Source: a virus. From it: a DNA stretch of 24,654 nucleotides. Position 1 is the first letter of the stretch, and each line of letters begins with the position of its first letter. The position numbers and the translations under genes are program-made. The notes beneath the pieces are model-generated. The model was not told where the DNA came from and ran no database searches. It was given only the letters and a program-made list of their open reading frames with translations. The stretch spans positions 1 through 24,654 of the IMG/VR virus record IMGVR_UViG_3300034152_000827, one strand, 5' to 3'. Positions 1-24,504 of this stretch are shown piece after piece.

Positions 1-9
1 ACCAGTGCA
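1..9. repeat. 9-bp terminal direct repeat (ACCAGTGCA)
   Basis: The first nine bases are identical to the last nine (24646-24654). Overlapping them keeps the tnpB reading frame open across the junction. This suggests a circular or circularly permuted source, or two cuts in the same IS sequence. The repeat alone cannot tell these apart. Confidence 0.7.
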
Positions 10-245
10 TATAGCAGCTCAGGCTGATAGACTTTTACCATCTACCACAGGTGCATTGATTATATTCCTTGCACCCAATATATCTCTGTGCGTTTTAAAC
101 CCGCACTTACATTGATACTTTCTATCCTTAGCTTTGTTTAGAGTACCGCACATAATGGCCAAATTCGCACAACAAGTGAACGCCAATTAAAATCGCCAGT
201 ATTATGTTTGAGAGCGTTAACGCGCTTCCACTTGTTATTGTGTTA
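1..245 (-). pseudogene. Decayed tnpB (IS200/IS605 OrfB), C-terminal part
   Basis: Minus-strand translation gives the end of a TnpB RNA-guided nuclease: the second half of the zinc finger (CGTLNKAKDRKYQCKCGF) followed by THRDILGARNI, which carries the last RuvC aspartate. The copy is dead. The first zinc pair reads RIWPLC where family members have a CPxC-type pair, so one Cys has become Trp. One extra base near position 150 shifts the frame between that pair and CGTLNK. A TGA at about 22-24 interrupts the frame after GKSLSA. Nothing N-terminal to about position 245 is recognisable. The frame after the TGA runs off the window at position 1 and continues in frame at the right end (24654 downwards). 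Confidence 0.8.
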
Positions 246-1372: not shown

Positions 1373-2493
1373 TCATTCCCATTTAGGGGGTTCTTTGTCA
1401 AACTTTTTGTAATAACTGGCCAAAAAATTATGAGCTTTTTTTGCGTCAACCCCCTTCACTCCTCCCCTTGAACCGTGAACGGCGGCCATGGCTGCGCTTA
1501 CTCCTCCCCAAGTGGCCTTAAGAGTCCCACCAATAACGTCTGCAAAAGGCAACTTGTATCCTTCAAAACTTTCCTTGTTGTCCGGATCACAATACACAAA
1601 ACCTTTTGCGTATTGAGACCAGTTTATTTTGTCTTTGTCAGGACCACCTGCCTTTTTTCTCATTCTTCCTTCAGCGGCACTTCCATCCCATTCTTCTTTG
1701 TCGTCTGTAGGAAGGCTTTTGCTTCCGCATATTTTCGCCACTTCTAAATTTTCAACGTTTAAATTGGAAGCGTCCTCACCATTAAACAAATCATAAACGG
1801 CTTCTTTTTTAAACAAGTCCAATCCTGGATTTTTAATAGATCTGTTCACTAACTCTTTGGTTGTTTTAAAAACGTCAGAATCTGCCAACTCATCCTCCAA
1901 CCAATCTACGTCAGCTTTAGCTTTCTTGGAAACGTCACATCCCAACTTCTTTGCTTTTCTGTTTATGCAGGCCGCAATTTTTTTCTTAGTTGATTGAGAA
2001 AATTTAGATCTTCCTAAGTACGTTTTAGCCACACCTACCATTTAGTTTTCTCATATTACTATGAGTGTCGGACTATATCATCAATTCAAGTTTTTGTAAA
2101 ATATATTTATGACATGTTTTTTGCATTCTTACAATCACTCAAATTGCCTGGCGTATTATACGTGTTTTAAATTTACTAAAATAATTTAGTAGTAACACAT
2201 ATCTCAGCTTTCGCTTCAGTCTCTGCGGGGTCAATTACAACTTCCCTCAGGATTGTCCTCGTCAAAAGGAGTTCCCTGATATAAGCCAGGTTTTTTAATG
2301 TAAGCACCTAGATTTAGTGGCTGTAAATTTTTTCTTAATGCTTACAATCTGTTACAGGAAAACTCCTGCCGGGGCCACAGTATGCACTGTCTGGAAGTTT
2401 CTTTCTGTCCTTAGTAGAAAGCTTCTTCCCAATAGCTTTATAGGCTCTTTCTACCAATTTATCCAAAACATTAAAATCTTTATTCTTTGGCAT
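1373..2493 (-). CDS. Head-protein-like gene (DUF6582-type domain) split by a group I intron; join of 2338-2493 and 1373-2038
   Basis: Two exons join in frame at CAT|GTA. Exon 1 (from ATG 2493, after GGGAG) encodes about 52 residues ending RKKLPDSAYCGPGRSFPVTD-CKH. Exon 2 continues VGVAKTYLGRSKFS and encodes 221 residues, giving about 273 aa. The CGPxRSFPV-D-CxH motif followed by a K/R-rich helix is typical of phage proteins found with capsid-maturation or head genes. The C-terminal half (WSQYAKGF, YKLPFADVIGG, HGSRGGVKG, EPPKW) resembles the DUF6582 family; the name is from memory. An alternative ATG at 2508 overlaps the previous stop as TAATG. The apparent ATG at 2041 has no ribosome site and is better read as the intron's last three bases. 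Precise function is unknown; a head-assembly or protease-linked role is inference. Confidence 0.8.
2039..2337 (-). ncRNA. Self-splicing group I intron, 299 nt, no ORF
   Basis: The last nine bases of the 5' exon (UGUAAGCAU, 2346-2338) pair perfectly with an internal guide (GUGCUUACA, 2307-2299), ending in the conserved U.G pair at the 5' splice site. Downstream on the minus strand come P4 (UCAGGGA with UCCUGA), P5 (CUCC/GAGG), P6 (GGG/CCC), the P7 5' element GCAGAGACUGAAGC (2226-2213), P3 (GGCUU with AAGCU), a long P8 (GUGUU...AACAC with an inner ACUAAA/UUUAGU), the P7 3' element GAUAUAGUCCGAC (2079-2067) and P9 (CUCAU-N6-AUGAG). The intron ends at the G at 2039. The 3' exon GUAGGU can form most of a P10 with the bases 5' of the guide. 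P7 closely resembles that of the Tetrahymena rRNA intron. No endonuclease is encoded inside. Confidence 0.93.
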
Positions 2494-7494: not shown

Positions 7495-9537
7495 TTATTT
7501 TTTGATAAAGTCAAACAATCTGACTTTTACATCGCTTTGATCCCATAAATACTGAGTACTTAAATCATAGGTTTTAAAACTAGTTACAATAAGTTCCTCT
7601 ATACCTGCATTTATTATTTTAACAAAACATTTTGAACATGGTACACCGCAATTATGAACAGCAAAGGGACCAACTAAATACGAAGAGTCGTTAGCAACAG
7701 TCAAATCATACACATTCGTATTAGAAACCTTATTACGAGTAATTTCCTTTACTTTAATAAAACCATCACGTCTATTAACTTGATTTTTTTTGTTAGCAGA
7801 ATAATAGATAGAATAGCGTGTTTTATGTTTAGTTCCAACTTTATCTACACAACCATTACTAATATAAGCCCTAACATTATAACCCCTAAGCAACAAAATT
7901 AAACAAATTTGTTTTGCCAACGTTTTTGAAATAGTAGTAATACTCTTCTGTCTTTTAATATCAGTGCCATCTCCATTATAAATACCATCTACAATAGATA
8001 AATTTATTTCAGAAAACAATAAACTATTATGTATGTGTTTATTATCTGCCCCTTCACCGCATAATTTGGAGAAATGTTTAGCCAGCTCAGAAGAATTTAT
8101 AATAACTCGTCTTCTATTTTCCTTAACAAAAACAGATACATTAAAACCAAACTTCATAAAAAAATTTTTAATTCTATCACTGTACGTTTTCTCTTCTTTA
8201 TGTAAAGAAAACACAATAGAAGATAAATATTTACCTTCTTTAACTCTATTCACGCTCCCCTCAGCAATGTACATTCCGACTATCCAACCATAATCATCGT
8301 CTTTAAACATTTTATCAGGTATGTTTTTTCTTAAATGTCTTTCTTTTGCGCTCCTTACATCAAAATCTAAAGTAAAAAAATCACATAGATTTGGTACATA
8401 TAGATAATCAGTTTCTTCTAATTCATCAGCTTTTATTTCTTCATAATTTAAATCTTGAATATTTTTATTGCATTTTACTTTTGGACACAAGAAACAACTT
8501 CTGTTATTGCTGTTTTTATAATGACAAATACCGGCTTTTTTTCCAAATAGAACATGATCAGGCGTTACTAAAAAATTAAAAATTTCTAATCCTTCTACCT
8601 TTATATTCAACAAATCACCTGAATATTTATTTATATGTTTTTTTAATACTTTATTAAACTTTCCCGTTTTAGATAAAACCCAATCCCCTATATTGACATT
8701 TTCTATTCTTACTAAACCGTTCTTAGTTACAACTTCTGTTTCTCCAAAAAAACACGTCATGTACATTTTAGTTCCTACGGTGCTTATTCCAAGTCTGGAA
8801 CAATTTATTATGGCGTTTTCTTCGCTGTGTCCGGCAACGCACCAATCCAACCCTTCTCCCGATTTAAAACCCAACACCTGCCTAGGACATTTTCCATAAA
8901 CGTCATCATAACCGCTTATTTTGCCTTCTTTAATAAGTTTCCCAAATTCAACCATAAGCATGTTGTCAATTTTCCATCTCTCATCACACCTTGGCACCCC
9001 CCTTGGGGCTCCGTTGTATCCAGTTCCTATGACGGTTTTGTCCCTAACAATTATGGATCCTATTCTCCTGGACAAACATTTTGAATTTCTTGAAACTTGC
9101 AGGCACATGTTGTAAAAATATTCATCCCAACTTTTTACAGGATCCAGGTCTGTGGTTGACTTAAAGTTAATCTCTTCCTTTGAGCCAATTGTTTTCTTCA
9201 TCCCAACCGCTCCTCCACCTTTGGACCATAAATATTTTATCGTCAAAGCCACTATCAATTTTGAAAAATCATTGAATGAAAAAAAATCATTAACAACTTC
9301 GCTAAAAATTTTTTTCTTGCAATCCAAATAAGTTTCTCCCAAAGCGTCTGAAACTTTTATTATGTTGAGCATTTCAATGACGCACAAACTGTTTTTAGTC
9401 TTTTCACAGGCTTTTAAATAATCGTCAATGTCCTCTTCCACAAATTTGCCACCGAAATATTCTTCCACGTCATGATTGAAATCATCGTCTATTATCAATT
9501 CATTGCTAAAATTTTTGTCTTCTTCTTTACAACACAT
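7495..9537 (-). CDS. dCMP deaminase precursor with intein and N-terminal extension
   Basis: This 680-aa precursor should splice to about 312 aa. dCMP deaminase makes dUMP for dTTP synthesis, fitting the nearby dUTPase and ribonucleotide reductase. The deaminase part runs from about residue 135 (SWDEYFYNMCLQVSRNSKCL, RRIGSIIVRD, GTGYNGAPRG). The zinc ligand and catalytic Glu are H237 and E239 in GHSEENAI (HSE for the usual HAE); the other ligands are C634 and C637 in CGVPCSKC, after the intein. The first 112 residues are an extra helical region unlike known deaminases. An internal ATG (M113, 9201) has GGAGGAG 8 nt upstream (9210-9216), so a short form starting there is possible. Confidence 0.9.
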   Translation of the reverse strand: MCCKEEDKNFSNELIIDDDFNHDVEEYFGGKFVEEDIDDYLKACEKTKNSLCVIEMLNIIKVSDALGETYLDCKKKIFSEVVNDFFSFNDFSKLIVALTIKYLWSKGGGAVGMKKTIGSKEEINFKSTTDLDPVKSWDEYFYNMCLQVSRNSKCLSRRIGSIIVRDKTVIGTGYNGAPRGVPRCDERWKIDNMLMVEFGKLIKEGKISGYDDVYGKCPRQVLGFKSGEGLDWCVAGHSEENAIINCSRLGISTVGTKMYMTCFFGETEVVTKNGLVRIENVNIGDWVLSKTGKFNKVLKKHINKYSGDLLNIKVEGLEIFNFLVTPDHVLFGKKAGICHYKNSNNRSCFLCPKVKCNKNIQDLNYEEIKADELEETDYLYVPNLCDFFTLDFDVRSAKERHLRKNIPDKMFKDDDYGWIVGMYIAEGSVNRVKEGKYLSSIVFSLHKEEKTYSDRIKNFFMKFGFNVSVFVKENRRRVIINSSELAKHFSKLCGEGADNKHIHNSLLFSEINLSIVDGIYNGDGTDIKRQKSITTISKTLAKQICLILLLRGYNVRAYISNGCVDKVGTKHKTRYSIYYSANKKNQVNRRDGFIKVKEITRNKVSNTNVYDLTVANDSSYLVGPFAVHNCGVPCSKCFVKIINAGIEELIVTSFKTYDLSTQYLWDQSDVKVRLFDFIKK
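7651..8754 (-). mobile_element. LAGLIDADG intein in dCMP deaminase (368 aa)
   Basis: Spans C262 to N629 of the precursor, with Cys630 as the +1 residue. Block A is CFFGETEVVT, block B is VTPDHVLF (TxxH), the C-terminal blocks are VYDLTVANDSSYLVGP and FAVHN with His-Asn at the end. The two endonuclease motifs are WIVGMYIAEG and VDGIYNGDG. A Cys pair region (SCFLCPKVKC) sits between the splicing and endonuclease parts. All splicing residues are present, so it should be active. Insertion is just before the PCxxC zinc ligands of the deaminase. The DNA appears AT-richer than the flanking exteins. Confidence 0.93.
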
Positions 9538-10295: not shown

Positions 10296-10336
10296 TTGAT
10301 GCTCATCGGGCACCGCCCGACGATTCCAGTTGAACC
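10296..10336 (-). repeat. IS605-type right end, 41-bp repeat copy 1
   Basis: Perfect copy of 13590-13630. On the minus strand it reads GGTTCAACTGGAATC, then a hairpin (CGTCGGGC-GGT-GCCCGATG, one G.T pair), then AGCATCAA. The GAATC-hairpin-AG..TCAA order matches the element end at 24537-24568 and the 3' end of omega-RNAs of TnpB elements. TCAA is a known right cleavage tetranucleotide in this family. Confidence 0.75.
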
Positions 10337-10914
10337 GCCTTCTCGGAACTCTGGTTTAGCGGACCACCAAAAACATATTTATAATCCTGCAGAACCCGCT
10401 GTTTTCTTTCTCTGGGGTTACCTAATCTTGTATTACAAGTTTTACACAAAACACCAAAATTACAAAGTTGAAAAGTTTTAATATTTTTATTACTTACCTT
10501 ATGACATCGTAGCCACCTTGTAGGTGAACCCTGTATTAGAATATTATTACTTTTGTGGTCAAAATAAATAGATTGGTTGTAATTTACGCTTCCTAAACCA
10601 AATTTTGGGAAGGTTAAGTCTTTTCCACAACATTGGCACTTAAAGCCTTCATTCATGTTATACATTTCTTTTATAACCGGCTCCCATTTTTCTAATGTTT
10701 TGTTACGACTTTTTTCTTGTTGTTTACTTAATTTAGATTTATTTTTTTCACTTAATTTACTATATCGTTCTCTTTGCTTCTTATTTTTACAACTTTTACA
10801 CCACGAGTATTTTCCATCTCTTGCTTTTTTGTCATCAATAAATTCGTTCAGTGATTTTTTAATCCCGCAAATTTTACAGTTTTTGTGACCAAGTTTCGCT
10901 ATAAAGTTTTGCAT
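10303..10914 (-). CDS. HNH/endonuclease VII-like nuclease inside an IS605-type element
   Basis: A 203-aa protein. The N-terminal treble-clef-like zinc finger is CKICGIKKSLNEF with WCKSCKNKKQRERY. The nuclease part has CQCCGKDL, YFDHKSNN (catalytic His) and VLCKTCNTRLGNP, the layout of recombination endonuclease VII-type His-Me finger enzymes. Start ATG 10914 follows GGAG by 9 nt, and both lie antisense to the truncated tnpA. The last about 20 residues (GGPLNQSSEKAVQLESSG and following) are not HNH-like. They are encoded by bases running into the IS right end, and the stop lies in its hairpin, as is common for tnpB. This suggests the nuclease gene replaced most of tnpB and kept its tail. It could act as a homing nuclease or as a passenger of the IS. 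Confidence 0.8.
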   Translation of the reverse strand: MQNFIAKLGHKNCKICGIKKSLNEFIDDKKARDGKYSWCKSCKNKKQRERYSKLSEKNKSKLSKQQEKSRNKTLEKWEPVIKEMYNMNEGFKCQCCGKDLTFPKFGLGSVNYNQSIYFDHKSNNILIQGSPTRWLRCHKVSNKNIKTFQLCNFGVLCKTCNTRLGNPRERKQRVLQDYKYVFGGPLNQSSEKAVQLESSGGAR

Positions 10915-11217
10915 CAACACATTCTCCAAGATTTGATTTTAACTCTTCCAGAAATGGCTAAACAAATGTCTGTAAGTATTTCTGAAATCAACGGTGAAGA
11001 AGACCATATACATTTTCTTTTGGAAACTACCCCACAAGATAATCTTGGGAATGTTATAGGAGCACTAAAAGCACGGTCTTCTTCGTATCTACATGATAAA
11101 TACACTTTTCCGTATTGGGGCAAACATTCCAGAACTCTTTGGTCTTCTGGGTATTTTGTAGTGTCCACTGGTGGTGCTCCTTTAGATGTTATTAAAAAGT
11201 ATATCCAAAACCAATAA
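10885..11217 (+). pseudogene. Y1 transposase TnpA (IS200/IS605), 5'-truncated
   Basis: The only plus-strand gene. It encodes 110 residues from a GTG without clear ribosome site. The HUH motif is in GEEDHIHFLLE and the catalytic Tyr is in DVIKKYIQNQ; WSSGYFVVSTGGAPLDVIKK is diagnostic for the family. The N-terminus begins at FVTKFRYKVL, so the first strand (normally HxxHLVFVTKYR) is missing and a stop (10852-10854) blocks any upstream extension. The first 30 nt overlap the HNH gene on the other strand. Family members of about 130-150 aa move single-stranded DNA; this one is probably inactive. Confidence 0.85.
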
Positions 11218-13654: not shown

Positions 13655-16456
13655 CTATATTTCACATTTGCCAGAAGCGCACTGCACTGATTCTATGCCT
13701 GCGTTTTCTTCTATCTTTACGCCATTATTTTTTAAATGCTTCCTGACTTCCGTGTAATTTATTTTGTTCAATATTTGACCAAACTTACTGCCATCAACAT
13801 ACACAGTTACTCCCTTTAGATCATATATATATTCCAAAGTCAGCTTGCTTAGATCTTCAGGCGTGGCGTTAGAAGGCATATTAATTGTTTTTGAGATCGC
13901 GCCGTCACAAAAACGCTGTGCCGCAACCTGAACTTCAAAATGATCAGTAGGAGACAAATCACTTGTATCTACATACCAGTTTGGAACTTTATTGTTTTTT
14001 GATATAATCTCTTTATATATGTCATGAACGTATATTCTTTCACTAACTCTATCTTTTCTTTTGTACGCTTTCATAAACAACGGTTCTATTCCAGAAGTAA
14101 CCTCAGCCAGCAAACTAATAGTATTGTGAGAGACAACGCTGTTTGCTATGTAAGTAACAGTGCTTGGAACTTCTATGTCATAAGTGTCGGTTGTAGAGTT
14201 TTCAATATTTACCACTTCATCTACCACGCACATATCTAAACCTAAGTCTTCTAATTGTTTCTTTTTTAACTGCTCTGCTTTAGGCCTGAATTTATAAATA
14301 CCCTGTTTTATATAAACCCTAAACATTTTAGTTCCCAACCCAGAAACGTTTTCTCGTATTTTAACGTCCTTGCCTAAAGATCTTAAAATAACAAGCATTT
14401 CTTTCGCAAGTTTTTTACTGGAGGTGTCCAAATATTCTGTGTTTCCAGTTCTTGACCCATCAGCAAATAAAATACCTTTAACAAAAGACTGAATACAGTT
14501 TTTACTGGACATGCGCACAAGCTTAGGCACAGAGACATTGGGTGATTTTTGTTTTAATAAACCATTGACTTCAAAAAATTTTAAAAGTAAATTGGAATTA
14601 AAACACACAGACATACAATTACGTCCATTATCCTCAAATATAGGTTCTATGCCAAAAAGATCTGTGCCTAATTTTGCTACATATAAATAATTTTCTTCTT
14701 CATGCACGTTACAACTAATGCGTATGCCTTCTGTATGATTACTTCCATCTCCAAAATAGATGCCCAGAAACTCTGCCAATTCTTCGGTCATAAAAGGAAT
14801 AGAGTTTATGTCATTCTGATTATGATGCTTTTTGGCAACTCCAGTTAAAGGCGGGTTGGACGCTTTATTGTATGTATTTAACGCTGATATTATGTCGTCC
14901 CCAACAATTAGTTCGTCCGCTCTTTTCCATATATACTTGCCATCTTGTAACACTCTATACTGATGATTATAAGTAGACTCTAAAACATTACCGCTCTTTA
15001 ATAATATTTTTTTAGTGTCCTGCACCCCATTAACATAAAATTTAGTTGCTAATTCCTCCTTACCATAATATTCTTGGCAGACCTTCAAATTTATGTTCTG
15101 CCACTTAGCGCCATTAATGTCCCCAAGCTCTTCTAAAGTTAACAAACCGCCATCCGTTACAAGCATGGTTTCTTTGTTTTGGCAGCCAGTAGGCGCCACA
15201 GCCTGCCCCGTGACACATCTAACCCCGTGTTCTTTTATGGACATTCTTAAAGAAGCCGGTAGCTTCCTAATAAAAGAAGCCTTGCCATAAGCGACTGGGT
15301 CAAATTTAGGAAACGCCCCCTTTTCTATTGACAGCTCCACTAAAGTTTCATATATTACGTCTCGTATAAATCTCATCAATCTTTCTATTTCAGCTATGGA
15401 TTTTTTGGAGCCGTATCTAACTTTTTTGGCAAACAAGTATTCAGCCAAACCCATAACTCCCAAACCAATTCTTCTCGAGTTGTGCTCAGAAATGTCTATT
15501 TCTTTCAAAACGTATTTATTGATCTCTATGACGTTGTCTAAAAACCTAACTGAAAGCTTAATAGTTTCCTCTAACTTTTTCCAGTTGGTGTTAACGGTTC
15601 CGGTAATGAAATTAGGTAAAACAAGGGACCCCAAATTACAACATGAATAAGCGCTCAACGGAACTTCGCCGCAGGGATTGACTCCCAGTATTGGTTGAAA
15701 ATAATAAGAGTTGTTTTTAGAAAGGTTGCTCCAATTCAAAACACCAGGTTCCGCGTGTTTAACCATGTTTTCCACAATTTTGTCCCATATGTCTTTGGCT
15801 GGAACAGTCCCATACGATTGGTGAGCAAACTTGAACTCCCATTCTTTGTTGGCCTCGACGGCCTCAAAAAAACCGTTAGTTGCTGCCACGGAAATGTTGA
15901 AATGTGGTAGTTTACCATCCTCCACTTTGGCGTCTATAAACCTAATTATGTCAGGATGAGACACGCTCATGCACGCCAAAGCGGCAGCGCGTCTCGAACC
16001 TCCGGATTCCACCGTCTTTGCTATGGCGTCTGACGCCTCCAAGAAACTTACAGGTCCTGACGAATAACCACCTACTCCTTTTATTGGATCTCCTTTGGGC
16101 CTAAGCTCACTTATATTTACACCAATTCCTCCTCCTTCACCCCACAGTATCAATGAATCTTTGTAGTATTGACCTATCTCTTCTCTTGAGTCTCCAATCG
16201 GTAGAACGTAACAATTGAACATGGACCCCCTTGGTCTCCCAGAGTTTCTCAATATCCTGCCGCCCGGAAGGAAATCCATCTCATGTATCATTTCAAAAAA
16301 TTTCTCGAAATATTCATCGCTTTTGTTAGTTTCAACAGAAGAAACGACTCTTGCGCATCTCCTCGCGCAGTCCTCCCAAGTTTCATTTTTTTCGTTCATA
16401 AAATATCTGTCTTGGGCAATCTTTAAAGCGCTTTCAGACAATTTTGAGTTACCCAT
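13655..16456 (-). CDS. nrdJ: Class II (adenosylcobalamin) ribonucleotide reductase precursor with intein
   Basis: A 933-aa precursor, about 579 aa after splicing, which suits the compact B12-dependent class II enzyme. It reduces ribonucleotides without oxygen or a separate radical subunit. Active-site residues are N260, C262 and E264 in VNPCGEVPL; the redox pair is C82 (FNCYVLP) and C273 (SCCNLGS). The C-terminal shuttle pair is C926 and C931 (CASGKCEI). The substrate loop APTG|TISLLAE is interrupted by the intein. Other family segments are LPGGRILRN, GGGIGVNIS and ESGGSRRAA. AGGT about 10 nt upstream of the ATG serves as ribosome site. The adjacent dUTPase gene ends 24 nt before it. Confidence 0.94.
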   Translation of the reverse strand: MGNSKLSESALKIAQDRYFMNEKNETWEDCARRCARVVSSVETNKSDEYFEKFFEMIHEMDFLPGGRILRNSGRPRGSMFNCYVLPIGDSREEIGQYYKDSLILWGEGGGIGVNISELRPKGDPIKGVGGYSSGPVSFLEASDAIAKTVESGGSRRAAALACMSVSHPDIIRFIDAKVEDGKLPHFNISVAATNGFFEAVEANKEWEFKFAHQSYGTVPAKDIWDKIVENMVKHAEPGVLNWSNLSKNNSYYFQPILGVNPCGEVPLSAYSCCNLGSLVLPNFITGTVNTNWKKLEETIKLSVRFLDNVIEINKYVLKEIDISEHNSRRIGLGVMGLAEYLFAKKVRYGSKKSIAEIERLMRFIRDVIYETLVELSIEKGAFPKFDPVAYGKASFIRKLPASLRMSIKEHGVRCVTGQAVAPTGCQNKETMLVTDGGLLTLEELGDINGAKWQNINLKVCQEYYGKEELATKFYVNGVQDTKKILLKSGNVLESTYNHQYRVLQDGKYIWKRADELIVGDDIISALNTYNKASNPPLTGVAKKHHNQNDINSIPFMTEELAEFLGIYFGDGSNHTEGIRISCNVHEEENYLYVAKLGTDLFGIEPIFEDNGRNCMSVCFNSNLLLKFFEVNGLLKQKSPNVSVPKLVRMSSKNCIQSFVKGILFADGSRTGNTEYLDTSSKKLAKEMLVILRSLGKDVKIRENVSGLGTKMFRVYIKQGIYKFRPKAEQLKKKQLEDLGLDMCVVDEVVNIENSTTDTYDIEVPSTVTYIANSVVSHNTISLLAEVTSGIEPLFMKAYKRKDRVSERIYVHDIYKEIISKNNKVPNWYVDTSDLSPTDHFEVQVAAQRFCDGAISKTINMPSNATPEDLSKLTLEYIYDLKGVTVYVDGSKFGQILNKINYTEVRKHLKNNGVKIEENAGIESVQCASGKCEI
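14123..15184 (-). mobile_element. LAGLIDADG intein in ribonucleotide reductase (354 aa)
   Basis: Runs from C425 to N778, with Thr779 as the +1 residue, inserted in the conserved APTG/TIS loop, a site where reductase inteins are known. Block B has TYNH (T495, H498); the end is TYDIEVPSTVTYIANSV then VSHN. Endonuclease motifs are FLGIYFGDGS and VKGILFADGS. All splicing residues are intact. The homing endonuclease acids (D570, D666) are kept, so it may still be mobile. Confidence 0.94.
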
Positions 16457-20223: not shown

Positions 20224-20251
20224 AACATAATCATTAAATTCGATTTGTCAA
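20224..20251 (-). promoter_or_regulatory. Sigma70-type promoter for the replication operon
   Basis: TTGACA (20251-20246), a 16-bp spacer ending AATGAT, then TATGTT (20229-20224). It overlaps the end of the upstream HAD gene and lies about 40 nt before the dnaX-like start. It matches the promoter at 11538-11565 at both hexamers and most of the conserved spacer. Confidence 0.75.
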
Positions 20252-20752
20252 ATTTTTCCTTCGTTTCATTTCCCCGCTTAATAATTCATACAACGCGCAA
20301 ACCACTCCGTTTCCACCATAAACGTCCAAGGTTAAATAAGATTTCTCTTTGACCTCCTTTGGACTGTCGTAAGTGCACACCGAAAAAGGCGTCAACATCA
20401 AACATTCCATGTCAGAAAACGAATTGCCCAAATATATCGTCTCTTCTGGGGACACATTGTATCTTCTCATTATCTCAATCAATTTGTCTTTTTTGTTTTT
20501 GGGAGAATCCGCTAAAAAAAACGGTATTTGTTTTCTCCTACACAAATTGTAACTAACTGAGTTGTCATATGACAAAAACACAAACTTAAATTCTCTCTTA
20601 AGGTTGTTAATAGCCTCAAAATCCCTCATAAAAAAATGCTTGAACGGAACGTTTCCTATTTCGTCTATTGGAGAAAATCCCTCTGTGACAATTCCGTCAA
20701 CCTCGCTGACTATCAACTTTATATTGGAACACAAATCATTGAAATATCCCAT
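20234..20752 (-). CDS. KdsC-like HAD protein with altered catalytic residues
   Basis: A 172-aa protein aligned by eye with KdsC-type phosphatases (KDO-8-phosphate phosphatase and relatives): IKLIVSEVDGIVTEG, FMRDFEAINNLKRE, FVFLSYDNS, NKKDKLIEIMRRYNVSPEET and YLGNSFSDMECLM. The first Asp of the DxDG nucleophile motif is Glu17 (codon GAG), and the metal-binding GDDxxD becomes GNSFSD. Both changes would damage phosphatase activity, so it may be a binding or regulatory pseudoenzyme, or have different chemistry. It is last in the sugar/sulfate operon, 3 nt after the methyltransferase gene, consistent with a role linked to acidic sugars. Confidence 0.75.
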   Translation of the reverse strand: MGYFNDLCSNIKLIVSEVDGIVTEGFSPIDEIGNVPFKHFFMRDFEAINNLKREFKFVFLSYDNSVSYNLCRRKQIPFFLADSPKNKKDKLIEIMRRYNVSPEETIYLGNSFSDMECLMLTPFSVCTYDSPKEVKEKSYLTLDVYGGNGVVCALYELLSGEMKRRKNLTNRI

Positions 20753-20755
20753 AAT

Positions 20756-21394
20756 CTACACCACCTTTTGGCACAAGCACATAATTCTGGGGCCGCCCTT
20801 TCCTTGACCGCCTTTATTGAACTCATAATAGACTATTTCAAACAACCCTTCAACCAATTCATACATCTCTTGTTTAGTAAAACGAACCTCATGGACTTTC
20901 CCAGTTTTTATGTCAGACCTGTCTTTAATTTCCTCTTTGGGGTTTTGAGTTCCAGGCACTTCAACGTAAAACAACCCATCCTCTTTTAGAACTCTATAGA
21001 CGTTTTTCACAACCTTTTTAGTGTTGTAACAATGTTCCAAAGAATGCAACATGATGACTGCGCAAAACTCGTTGTCCTCAAACACAGACATGTCGTGAGC
21101 GTCATTCAACACGACGTCCAAACCCCTTGAAACAGCTTCTTTTACAGCCAATTCCACCAAGTCCGCGCCTTTAATGTTAACAAAACCTTTACTAATTAGA
21201 TATTCCATGCAGCAACCAAACCTACAACCAACGTCCAGTATAGGTTTGTTCTTGTACAACAACTTGTCTAATTGTTTACAAGCGTTGGAATACCTAAGTT
21301 TTAACACTGGTCTTTCGTCCAACGGTAAATGTGCTTTCTTCCAATGTTTCTCAACTTCCTCCAACTGTCTGTCAACGTAAATGTTGTTTTCCAT
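20756..21394 (-). CDS. Class I SAM methyltransferase (type 11)
   Basis: A 212-aa enzyme with motif I PILDVGCRFGCCMEYL (51-66), acidic D78 at the end of strand 2, the NDAHDM segment (98-102) and HSLEHCYNTKKVVKNVYRVL (117-136), typical of Methyltransf_11. The substrate is unknown; surrounding glycosyltransferase, sulfotransferase and FkbM genes suggest methylation of a glycan or lipid carrier. GAGG about 11 nt upstream of the ATG. No membrane segment, so cytoplasmic. Confidence 0.85.
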   Translation of the reverse strand: MENNIYVDRQLEEVEKHWKKAHLPLDERPVLKLRYSNACKQLDKLLYKNKPILDVGCRFGCCMEYLISKGFVNIKGADLVELAVKEAVSRGLDVVLNDAHDMSVFEDNEFCAVIMLHSLEHCYNTKKVVKNVYRVLKEDGLFYVEVPGTQNPKEEIKDRSDIKTGKVHEVRFTKQEMYELVEGLFEIVYYEFNKGGQGKGGPRIMCLCQKVV

Positions 21395-21410
21395 TTTATT
21401 TTATTCCTCA

Positions 21411-22046
21411 CTAAAAATTATACCCAAACTTTTCTATGTCCTCCCTATAAACCCTTTCAACAACGTTTTTAGATTCATCGGCATACAATTCTCTGTAATT
21501 AAATTTACTGTTTGTTGATTTCCTATTTCTTGGAATGTCTTCTACAACCAACCCCATCTTCGAGCACAAATACCTAACCTCAACGTTAAAGTTCTCATAA
21601 CTGGAAACATGATCCACCATAATCCTTCCGTCTTCATCGGTTATCCATTTAATTTGCGGTGTCAAATGATTAAATTTTTTGTCAACTACGCCCCAATTAA
21701 AATTTAAAACAAAGTCATTTAAATCAACGTATCCTTTTACAATGCCTGCTCCTGCTGGTTTTCTTCCTCCAACATCCAAAAAACCGTGCTTCTTGGCATG
21801 AAAAAACGAAGACAACCTGTCCCAAGGGTTTCTCACGAAACAAAATTTGAAGTATTTATCAAATTCTTCTGGGTATTTATTTTTAATAGCCATGGAAGAC
21901 TCATGACTGTACACGTCAGCTGACGGAACTTTAACAAAAACATTGAACACTCCCTTTTTAAAATTGTCGTTGGAATATACGCTGGTCCCCCCTGTCTTGG
22001 GTATGTGAATGAATATGAATTTGTATTTATGACACACAATTGTCAT
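21411..22046 (-). CDS. PAPS-dependent sulfotransferase (family 2-like)
   Basis: A 211-aa enzyme that should transfer sulfate from PAPS to a sugar or other hydroxyl. The 5'-phosphosulfate loop is IPKTGGTS (15-22) and the 3'-phosphate motif is FVRNPWDRLSSFF (70-82), both canonical. It is cytosolic, without a membrane anchor unlike Golgi relatives. GGAG lies 9 nt before the ATG, in the last codons of the preceding gene. In context it would sulfate a glycan made or modified by the adjacent glycosyltransferase. PAPS must come from the host, as no synthesis genes are visible. Confidence 0.88.
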   Translation of the reverse strand: MTIVCHKYKFIFIHIPKTGGTSVYSNDNFKKGVFNVFVKVPSADVYSHESSMAIKNKYPEEFDKYFKFCFVRNPWDRLSSFFHAKKHGFLDVGGRKPAGAGIVKGYVDLNDFVLNFNWGVVDKKFNHLTPQIKWITDEDGRIMVDHVSSYENFNVEVRYLCSKMGLVVEDIPRNRKSTNSKFNYRELYADESKNVVERVYREDIEKFGYNF

Positions 22047-22601
22047 TCATTTAATCTCCGCGACAAGCACGTCGTTTTTAAAAACCTCTTTAGTTGAAAC
22101 CCCATCGACGTAATACAAGTTGTAATTGTGGTTTATTTCCTTAAGTTTGTTTATTATGTGAGCCTCGCTTATGTTGTTCCACAAAGCAATGGGTTTTCTA
22201 AATATTCTTATGTCGTCTATTAAAATCGTGTGGTTTACAACGTTATGATTTTTAATACACTCAAGCTCTCTTAAAATAGGACACGTATCGGCAAGGGGTT
22301 TAGTGTGATATTTTCCAGAACCGCTATAATGAGAGTCCAACCAAAAAGTCACTCTCTCAACAACGTCCTCCAACGCTTCACACAACAACTCACCGCTGTC
22401 GCCACACAGTAGAGTCACGTTGTCCTTGCCTTTAAATCTTTTTACGCAATTTGCATATTTCTCAGGATAAAACTCTATGCTGATAAGTTTTTCAAACCCA
22501 GCGTCATAAGCCTCTTGAAGTCCGGAACCGTTGCTTGTTCCTGTTTCTATGAAAATTTTGTTGTAATTAAATTTTTCTAAAGTTTCTTTGTCTATCGGCA
22601 T
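22047..22601 (-). CDS. SAM methyltransferase-like Rossmann protein
   Basis: A 184-aa protein with a glycine-rich motif I variant (FIETGTSNGSGLQEAYDAGF, 17-36), an acidic strand-2 end (SIEFYPEK), the CGDSGELL segment and FWLDSHYSGSG (about 86-96), followed by HTILIDDIR. This resembles small class I methyltransferases found in polysaccharide clusters, but the SAM loop (ETGTSNG) is weaker than in its neighbours. GGAGG lies 7 nt before the ATG within the previous stop region. Exact substrate is unknown. Confidence 0.7.
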   Translation of the reverse strand: MPIDKETLEKFNYNKIFIETGTSNGSGLQEAYDAGFEKLISIEFYPEKYANCVKRFKGKDNVTLLCGDSGELLCEALEDVVERVTFWLDSHYSGSGKYHTKPLADTCPILRELECIKNHNVVNHTILIDDIRIFRKPIALWNNISEAHIINKLKEINHNYNLYYVDGVSTKEVFKNDVLVAEIK

Positions 22602-22603
22602 GC

Positions 22604-23335
22604 TTATCCTCCCTTGGCCAACAAATTAGGGTTCAAGTTGCTTTTGTCTATCTTTGTTAACTTTTTCAAACCTACTTCTTTTCCTGTTTTCTCGTCATAC
22701 AAAACATATCCCATAGACCACAACTTCTCTCCAATCTTGACTGCGTTTCCACATCCAAACTCCACCAACAAAACAGGCCTGAACAAATCTATCGTCTCTT
22801 GAGCCCCTTCCAATATTTCAAATTCGGTTCCGTCAACGTCTATTTTTATAAAATCAAGCCTGTTCAAACAACTGTAAAAAAACCAGTCGTCAAAACTGAC
22901 TACTTCAGACTTGCAATATCTGTTTAAATCATCGTCCTTTTTGATCAAATCAACAATTGCGGTTGAAGGAAACCCACGTTTAAACAAACACTTTTTGCGT
23001 TTGCTGTATACTCCTTTGTTTATGGCAACTACATTGCGCAGTTTGTTTAATTCTATGTTGGAAATAAGTCTGTCATAAAAATAATTAAACGGTTCAAAAG
23101 ATATAACTTTTCCAACGTCTCCAACCAATTTGGAAAACAACAAGGTGAAATATCCTATATTGGCTCCCACGTCAATGACAACGTCTCCTTTCTTCACTGT
23201 GTTTTTAACCAACTTTGTGGCGTTTGGTTCCCAACACCCATTTCTAATTATATCCCTGTCTATGCAACTGTTGTGATTGGTGCTAAGAAAATATTTAAAC
23301 CCACCCTTATTGAACAATTTTAAATTTTCGTTCAT
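22604..23335 (-). CDS. FkbM family methyltransferase
   Basis: A 243-aa enzyme of the FkbM O-methyltransferase family. Motif I is VIDVGANIGYFTLLFS (53-68), strand 2 ends SFEP (E81), and the family signature RLDFIKIDVDGTEFEILEGA is at 159-178, then LLVEFGC where relatives often have VEI/VEF. FkbM enzymes methylate sugar or polyketide hydroxyls and are frequent in surface-polysaccharide loci. The ATG overlaps the glycosyltransferase stop as ATGA, so the two are coupled. Cytoplasmic. Confidence 0.92.
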   Translation of the reverse strand: MNENLKLFNKGGFKYFLSTNHNSCIDRDIIRNGCWEPNATKLVKNTVKKGDVVIDVGANIGYFTLLFSKLVGDVGKVISFEPFNYFYDRLISNIELNKLRNVVAINKGVYSKRKKCLFKRGFPSTAIVDLIKKDDDLNRYCKSEVVSFDDWFFYSCLNRLDFIKIDVDGTEFEILEGAQETIDLFRPVLLVEFGCGNAVKIGEKLWSMGYVLYDEKTGKEVGLKKLTKIDKSNLNPNLLAKGG

Positions 23336-24504
23336 ACGGCGTCTCTAAACACTTCAATTATTTTCTTGGCTCTTGCTTCAACTGTGTGTCTTTTTTGCAC
23401 CATTTCTCGACCAGCCTTTCCTATCTCTTTGTACATGTCTGAATCCAACACCTTGTTAATTTCATTAAGATTAAAAATCTTTACGTAAGTTTCTCCATCT
23501 ACAAAACCGAACTGTTCCATCAACGGAAGCTCGTGACTAACAAGACACGCCCCGTTGTTGCACACTTCATAATATTTTGGAGGTATGAACCTGTCATGTA
23601 TTCCACCGCTAAAATAATATTTGGTCTTTTTTATTTTTCTTTGATACTCATCGTTTGGAAGAGGATACTTTCCAAATGATCCGCAAGACAAGACAACGTC
23701 CTTCCTGTTCAATTTTTTAAGGTAATTGTAAATTAATTTTCTCTTAGAATAGGCGTTGTCTATGCAACCAGTACACATGGCAGTTATTTTTTTGTCTTCG
23801 ACGTAAGACTCTTTATCCGTCACAAACCAAGGGACGAGTTCAACCCTGCATCCTATGCTCTTGCCAAACCTAACGAGCTCGTCCGGACAATATTGCAAAC
23901 AACCCATTAGATCCGGCCTCACTTTTTTCATCCATTCCTTGGTTCTTTTCTCATCGCCAAAATAATCACTGACAAAAGAATAAATGAATTTAGCCGGCCT
24001 TTTTTCACCTTTAGGAACTCTGGGTTTTTGAATGTAAGCAATGTCAAAATCCCCATGTACTGGATAAAACTCAAAGTTGTTCTTAGTGACCACCACGTGC
24101 CGAGTTCTTCCTATTTTTTCTTGCAGAGCGATCCCTATCCCGTCATACCAAAAATTCCAATGAGCCTCTGGAGTGCCGGGGCCGTGATAAGAAACTACGT
24201 TCAAATTAGAACTAACTTCAATGACGTCTCCACTAAATGAACCTGACTTTCCACTTGTTTCTTTAACTAATCTTTCTTCTTCAACGTTCCCAGATCTTGA
24301 ATCGTCACAAGGATCGTCTTCATTCGCGGCCCTTGCCTGTTCTGCAGCTGGGGCCGTTGTGCAAACAGGAAGATCTTCTCCTTCCTCTTCAATAACGTCA
24401 GTAAGCTCTATAATCTCCTCTTCATCCTCTTCTTCTGATTTAAAAAAATCTCTGTCTATCTCTTCCATCAATTTCCTTCTTTTCTGTTCTTCAAAATCAT
24501 ACAT
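23332..24504 (-). CDS. CgeB-like glycosyltransferase with acidic N-terminal tail
   Basis: A 390-aa protein. Residues 1-105 are very acidic and low complexity (KSEEEDEEEIIELTDVIEEE), probably disordered. From YHGPGTPEAHWNFWYDGIGI onward it matches the CgeB/Glyco_trans_1_2 fold: PVHGDFDIAYIQKPRVP, the PWFVTDKESY segment, and the C-terminal nucleotide-sugar region GIHDRFIPPKYYEVCNNGAC followed by LVSHELPLMEQFGF. It should add a sugar to a glycan or a viral protein. It heads the surface-chemistry operon, with AGGAGG 8 nt before the ATG. No promoter is evident in the short gap to the IS end, so transcription probably enters from beyond the window edge. Confidence 0.82.
   Translation of the reverse strand: MYDFEEQKRRKLMEEIDRDFFKSEEEDEEEIIELTDVIEEEGEDLPVCTTAPAAEQARAANEDDPCDDSRSGNVEEERLVKETSGKSGSFSGDVIEVSSNLNVVSYHGPGTPEAHWNFWYDGIGIALQEKIGRTRHVVVTKNNFEFYPVHGDFDIAYIQKPRVPKGEKRPAKFIYSFVSDYFGDEKRTKEWMKKVRPDLMGCLQYCPDELVRFGKSIGCRVELVPWFVTDKESYVEDKKITAMCTGCIDNAYSKRKLIYNYLKKLNRKDVVLSCGSFGKYPLPNDEYQRKIKKTKYYFSGGIHDRFIPPKYYEVCNNGACLVSHELPLMEQFGFVDGETYVKIFNLNEINKVLDSDMYKEIGKAGREMVQKRHTVEARAKKIIEVFRDAV

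Follow-up and report, generated by a model that had tools for sequence, protein, structure and literature searches.

A group I intron with a likely endonuclease remnant in a small phage gene

The window, meaning the whole stretch of viral DNA analysed (24,654 nucleotides, IMG/VR record IMGVR_UViG_3300034152_000827), contains a group I intron of a well-known kind (PMC3984707, PMC11878797), which a preliminary description made from the sequence had found and bounded correctly at 2039-2337. The element is very probably a self-splicing intron of group IA type that interrupts a phage gene, presumed to splice and to have moved by homing in the past. What is added here is a relative at the same site that carries an endonuclease-like ORF, L054, and a likely endonuclease remnant in the window copy. 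The interrupted gene consists of:

2338 to 2493, minus strand: exon 1, 52 codons from the ATG at 2493, with an upstream in-frame ATG at 2508; homologous to L002, L003, L109 and others up to the junction
2039 to 2337, minus strand: group I intron, first in-frame codon TAA, last base G; supported by RF00028 and the same-site relative L054
1373 to 2038, minus strand: exon 2, 221 codons and a stop; the remainder of the CGPxxSFPV domain, followed by a C-terminal domain

The covariance search that the preliminary description had proposed gives a single Rfam match, RF00028 (group I intron), at 2371-2049 on the minus strand, with 57.4 bits against a gathering score of 50 and an E value of 2.4e-12; besides RF00028, nothing in the whole 24,654-base window is matched even at E <= 1. 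The intron (2337-2039, minus strand, 299 nt) lies exactly where it had been placed, and its last base, G2039, is the terminal G of group I introns. Exon 1 (2493-2338) ends ...AAGCAT at 2338 (...TGTAAGCAT) and is directly followed by the in-frame TAA of the intron, while exon 2 begins with GTAGGT (GTAGGTGTG) at 2038. Unspliced, exon 1 halts at this TAA, the first in-frame codon of the intron. The spliced product reads ...SFPVTDCKH|VGVAKTYLGRSKFS... and has 273 aa counted from the ATG at 2493. A mechanical ORF call gives exon 2 a false ATG at 2041, built from the last three intron bases; this false start, and the loss of the N-terminus when the intron is not annotated, had been foreseen. We infer splicing from the sequence and structure of the intron, the compensatory changes, the uninterrupted homologues and the same-site relative.

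Among the loci fetched with the motif CGP...DCxH, 67 distinct viral sequences are continuous through the junction, while one, L054, is split. DC-x-H|V-x-V-A-K is unbroken in L002, L003, L109 and other viral homologues, the general pattern at the junction being DC-x-H | V/Y..., and several intronless homologues, for instance L108 and L121, have the identical bases CAT|GTA. It had been proposed that the two flanking ORFs form one protein and that splicing restores the frame at CAT|GTA. Both proposals agree with the junction positions and with the homologues, since all 67 are continuous at the same codon and have in one piece the domain that is split midway here. The spliced protein is matched on both sides of the junction by PHROG family phrog_16160, whose function is unknown (E 2.3e-9; residues 29-86, counted from the ATG at 2508); taken by itself, the exon 2 ORF gives nothing in PHROG or Pfam. 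The loci L059, L070, L071, L073, L076, L082, L083, and L094 first looked truncated at the junction and were found on inspection to read through it. Two separate genes with a structured intergenic spacer and no splicing could be considered, as both ORFs have usable starts on a mechanical reading, but this is very improbable given that the domain cut midway is continuous in the 67 homologues, and given a full ribozyme core with compensatory changes that reach into both exons.

The preliminary description called this a phage head-type gene with a DUF6582-like end. The latter was not found in Pfam. The former term describes the domain and not this gene: the CGPxxSFPV domain is also found in many phages within large prohead-protease-like ORFs with capsid-like genes next to them (judged by eye from sequence), and in Thermus phage Riverbug the match sits in a gene annotated as a head maturation protease, but the window gene itself is surrounded by non-head genes. 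A methyltransferase and a metallopeptidase come before it in the window, L054, L147, and L109, and a methionine aminopeptidase-like gene comes after it in the window. L002 and L003 encode the C-terminal domain in a gene of its own ahead of the CGP gene, while the two are fused in the window; these separate genes are adjacent and in the opposite order (L002 4881-5829; L003 4905-5819). No description of a group I intron in this gene was found in the literature, which given the limited coverage of the search is weak evidence.

The helices assigned to the intron RNA are the following:

2338 to 2346, minus strand: P1 exon strand UGUAAGCAU, with the terminal U of the U.G pair at 2338
2309 to 2312, minus strand: P10 intron strand UCUA, pairing with exon 2 bases 2037-2034 (UAGG); 4 of 4 pairs changed on both sides in L054
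2299 to 2307, minus strand: P1 intron strand (internal guide sequence) GUGCUUACA; 3 of 9 pairs changed on both sides between the window and L054
2285 to 2290, minus strand: P3 5' strand, with its 3' strand at 2152-2147
2247 to 2279, minus strand: P4 (2279-2274/2252-2247) and P5 (2270-2267/2259-2256)
2227 to 2246, minus strand: P6 (2246-2244/2229-2227), invariant in both introns, and P6a (2241-2239/2232-2230)
2218 to 2221, minus strand: P7 5' strand GACU, with its 3' strand AGUC at 2074-2071
2158 to 2215, minus strand: P7.1 (2215-2213/2208-2206) and P7.2 (2202-2197/2163-2158), between the P7 5' and P3 3' strands
2082 to 2146, minus strand: P8 (2146-2138/2090-2082) and its loop
2050 to 2065, minus strand: P9 hairpin (2065-2061/2054-2050)

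As in other group I introns, P1 (9 bp) has a terminal U.G pair, U2338.G2307, at the splice site, and there is a P3-P7 core with P4-P6 and P8. The 9-bp P1 with its U.G pair, P10 and P4 to P9 had all been recognized previously; P7.1 and P7.2 were absent from that list. All 62 assigned pairs are standard in both the window and the L054 intron, 16 being changed on both sides, 7 on one side and none broken; the helices were picked by hand on the same two sequences, so the number of standard pairs is favoured by choice and the double changes are the informative part. The tally of 62 used base 2230 in both P6 and P6a, and P6 moved by one base has the same invariant pairs. When the 3' partners were slid by 1-3 bases as a control, 15-28 pairs and 0-4 double changes were obtained. 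The folding energy of the window intron RNA is better than that of 100 out of 100 dinucleotide shuffles (z -3.88), and the minimum-energy fold recovers P1, P3, P4, P5, P7.1, P7.2, P8, and P9 unaided.

In the window P1 reads GUAAGCAU/GUGCUUAC and the exon strands encode K-H|V-G; in L054 it reads GUGCCCAU/GUGGGCAC and they encode A-H|Y-T. Since the exon strands thus encode different amino acids, the intron strands of P1 and P10 have been re-fitted to the exons, and this re-fitting provides strong comparative evidence that these pairings are used.

The presence of P7.1 and P7.2 between P7 and P3 is the layout of group IA introns. In the window intron both helices are found between the P7 5' strand and the P3 3' strand and both covary, and by this layout the intron is placed with the IA introns, presumably IA2-like ones. 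Group IA introns of T4-like, Twort-like and Bastille-like phages (PMC3984707, PMC11878797) share this layout, and also a loop hosting endonuclease ORFs and an in-frame stop after the 5' splice site. They are mostly found in genes for DNA polymerase, ribonucleotide reductase, terminase or thymidylate synthase, while the window intron interrupts a small gene of unknown function.

After transcription the intron would pair with the end of exon 1 (P1) and with the start of exon 2 (P10). A guanosine cofactor would then cut the RNA after U2338, a cut would also be made after the terminal G2039, and joining of the exons would give ...DCKH|VGVAK... and a single protein of 273 aa. The TAA right after the 5' splice site would end translation of unspliced RNA and thereby keep ribosomes off the ribozyme. 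Earlier the intron would have spread by homing while its P8 loop contained an endonuclease gene, of the kind that the same-site intron of L054 still has, and in the window copy this gene would have been deleted except for a few end codons.

In L054 (IMGVR_UViG_3300025111_000052, 152 kb) an intron of 1,061 nt occupies precisely the same codon. There GATTGTGCCCAT closes exon 1 and TATACCGCAGC opens exon 2, which gives the codon boundary seen in the window. L052, L053, and L055 are identical copies of L054 and represent one virus, so that the comparison rests on two independent introns. These are alike in gene, codon and helices (P1-P10 with P7.1/P7.2), and their cores are identical at 77 of 92 positions; they differ in length, in the guide sequence, which in L054 is fitted to its own exons, and in the presence in L054 of an endonuclease-like ORF in P8. 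This ORF of 284 aa (1760-2614), located in the P8 loop, contains LFLDIFLPDHSIALEYDGKQHF and matches PHROG families of homing and HNH endonucleases (phrog_9084, 6.5e-13; phrog_559, the best, 5.6e-19). Phage terminase introns are reported to contain phrog_559 as a nuclease of the VSR type (PMC11878797), and judged by these matches the ORF is VSR-type homing-endonuclease-like. Rfam does not detect the L054 intron even at E <= 1, giving only a weak potC match that corresponds to P1, because of the ORF insert; alignment and the helices served to establish it.

When IMG/VR was scanned for the core pattern and for the endonuclease, the L054 virus remained the one close case of an intron at this site, a result that covers the loci other than 75 more distant endonuclease relatives. 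Pattern matches to the intron core in L101, L104, and L105 were due to chance, lying in coding DNA or on a group II intron. Nine related phage records have no group I intron detectable by Rfam, a search that an ORF-bearing intron would escape, and megablast of the window against phage records gave no close relative.

An intact endonuclease ORF is present only in L054. That the window intron lacks one had been noted; it contains instead:

2073 to 2126, minus strand: mini-ORF of 17 codons, MQKTCHKYILQKLELMI and a stop, with its start and stop at the places of those of the L054 endonuclease ORF; probable remnant

The ends of the mini-ORF align with both ends of the L054 ORF (MNKEC...EYFLDKLKLVV and a stop). 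The P8 loop of the window is 45 nt long. Both where it begins (GATTGTAAGAATGCAAAA) and where it ends (AATATATTTTACAAAA) it resembles the corresponding end of the L054 ORF region, with a combined score of 21, compared to a shuffle mean of 5.4 (s.d. 3.6) and with none of 1000 shuffles as good; the score of the loop start alone was reached by 23 of 1000. There is furthermore an ungapped match of 69 nt, 72% identical, that extends from inside the L054 ORF through P8, P7, and P9. Related endonucleases end in a helix-like stretch after a conserved R-[IF]-x-Y-x-E motif, and since this kind of end is shared the codons of the mini-ORF are plausibly endonuclease codons. The window intron has thus probably lost its endonuclease gene by internal deletion. 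We put the deletion no higher than probable because this AT-rich sequence of 45 nt is short, and because its last codons coincide in part with P8 and P7, where the RNA itself constrains the bases.

Gain of the gene in the L054 lineage is the alternative to loss in the window, the direction of change being one that we infer. The intron may then never have had an endonuclease gene before L054 gained one in P8, and any movement of the window copy would depend on a nuclease encoded outside it (collaborative homing). Free-standing nucleases that serve introns lacking an ORF have been described (PMC3984707), the window intron has no endonuclease ORF, and a free HNH/endonuclease VII-like protein is encoded at 10303-10929 (phrog_2633, 2.4e-13). 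This gene is, however, located 8 kb off beside an IS200-like transposase and does not adjoin the intron, and the loop ends match both ends of the L054 ORF, with start and stop in the same places. We consider this explanation unlikely, if still one to be kept in mind, and prefer the deletion.

An IStron, the fusion of a group I intron with an IS605-type transposon, or what is left of one, is scarcely credible. The window has a TnpB-like C-terminal fragment at its left end and an IS200-like transposase at 10885-11217, but the intron contains no transposase sequence, and its same-site relative carries a homing endonuclease-like ORF instead. With no IS605-type ORF within the intron, the IStron is refuted as far as tested.

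Between the window and L054, exon identity is 60% (over 87 nt) and 58% (over 102 nt), while the intron cores are about 84% identical (77/92), which fits transfer, as judged from two independent introns only. The closest relatives of the exons lack the intron: L147 shares 93 and 81% identity with the exons of L054, and for the window exons the nearest homologue at the protein level is L109 (69 and 78% identical). Vertical inheritance from a common ancestor, with loss of the intron in many relatives, would agree with the local gene order shared by the two phages (metallopeptidase, small gene, methyltransferase, interrupted gene) and with guide sequences that match their own exons. It is nevertheless unlikely in view of these intronless relatives and of the gap between exon and core identity, part of which strong constraint on the core could explain. 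The comparison suggests that lateral spread by homing fits better than vertical descent with many losses, although two introns are not proof. The preliminary description held that the intron must rely on another nuclease or be vertically inherited; this is to be revised, as the sister intron at the same site has its own endonuclease-like ORF, the window copy appears to be a deletion derivative and the exons speak against simple vertical descent. Whether one codon here displays three stages of a homing cycle, empty (67 homologues), endonuclease-bearing (L054) and with only the end codons of the endonuclease left (window), the two helices that pair with the exons having been re-fitted to the codons around them, we regard as evenly balanced.

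Group I introns in phage DNA polymerase genes (Edwardsiella phage vB_EtA_DT115P1, Escherichia phage ECBP2, Flavobacterium phage Fpv20) have the same fold, and from P7 to the end they are up to 36/40 identical to the window intron. They differ in host gene and site and in having an HNH or homing endonuclease ORF, and two of the polymerase introns, L190 and L191, give Rfam group I matches below the cut-off. Their best local scores against the core are 13-15, compared to 62 for L054; as they are at background in the 5' half, the resemblance in the core is peculiar to the two introns at this site. From P7 to the end, the window intron is identical at 36 of 40 positions to the Edwardsiella phage polymerase intron and at 25 of 33 to L054, and recombination among introns may lie behind this 3'-end likeness. 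Over its final 45 nt the window intron shares 91% identity with the 3' end of the Edwardsiella phage intron (L190 1301-1345).

For this phage group the gene calls can now be corrected for the false start and the lost N-terminus, and an uncommon host gene is added to those known for phage group I introns. No new mechanism is revealed; the three-state site opens endonuclease loss and the re-fitting of guide sequences to exon codons to study.

Other elements are also found in the window. The large subunit of ribonucleotide reductase (13655-16456, minus strand) has an in-frame intein (Intein_splicing, weak LAGLIDADG_3), and a dCMP deaminase (7495-9537, minus strand) is split by an intein-like insert with a LAGLIDADG-like domain; with the group I intron this makes three splicing elements in 24.6 kb. 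The endonuclease VII/HNH-like gene (10303-10929, minus strand) and the IS200-like transposase gene (10885-11217, plus strand) are divergent and overlap in their start regions. The TnpB-like C-terminal fragment (CGTLNKAKDRKYQCKCGFKTHRDILGARNI...; 1-130, minus strand) lies at the contig edge, with stop codons preceding it. A block of sulfotransferase, FkbM methyltransferase, HAD hydrolase and glycosyltransferase-like genes is found at 20234-24504 (minus strand) of this phage contig.
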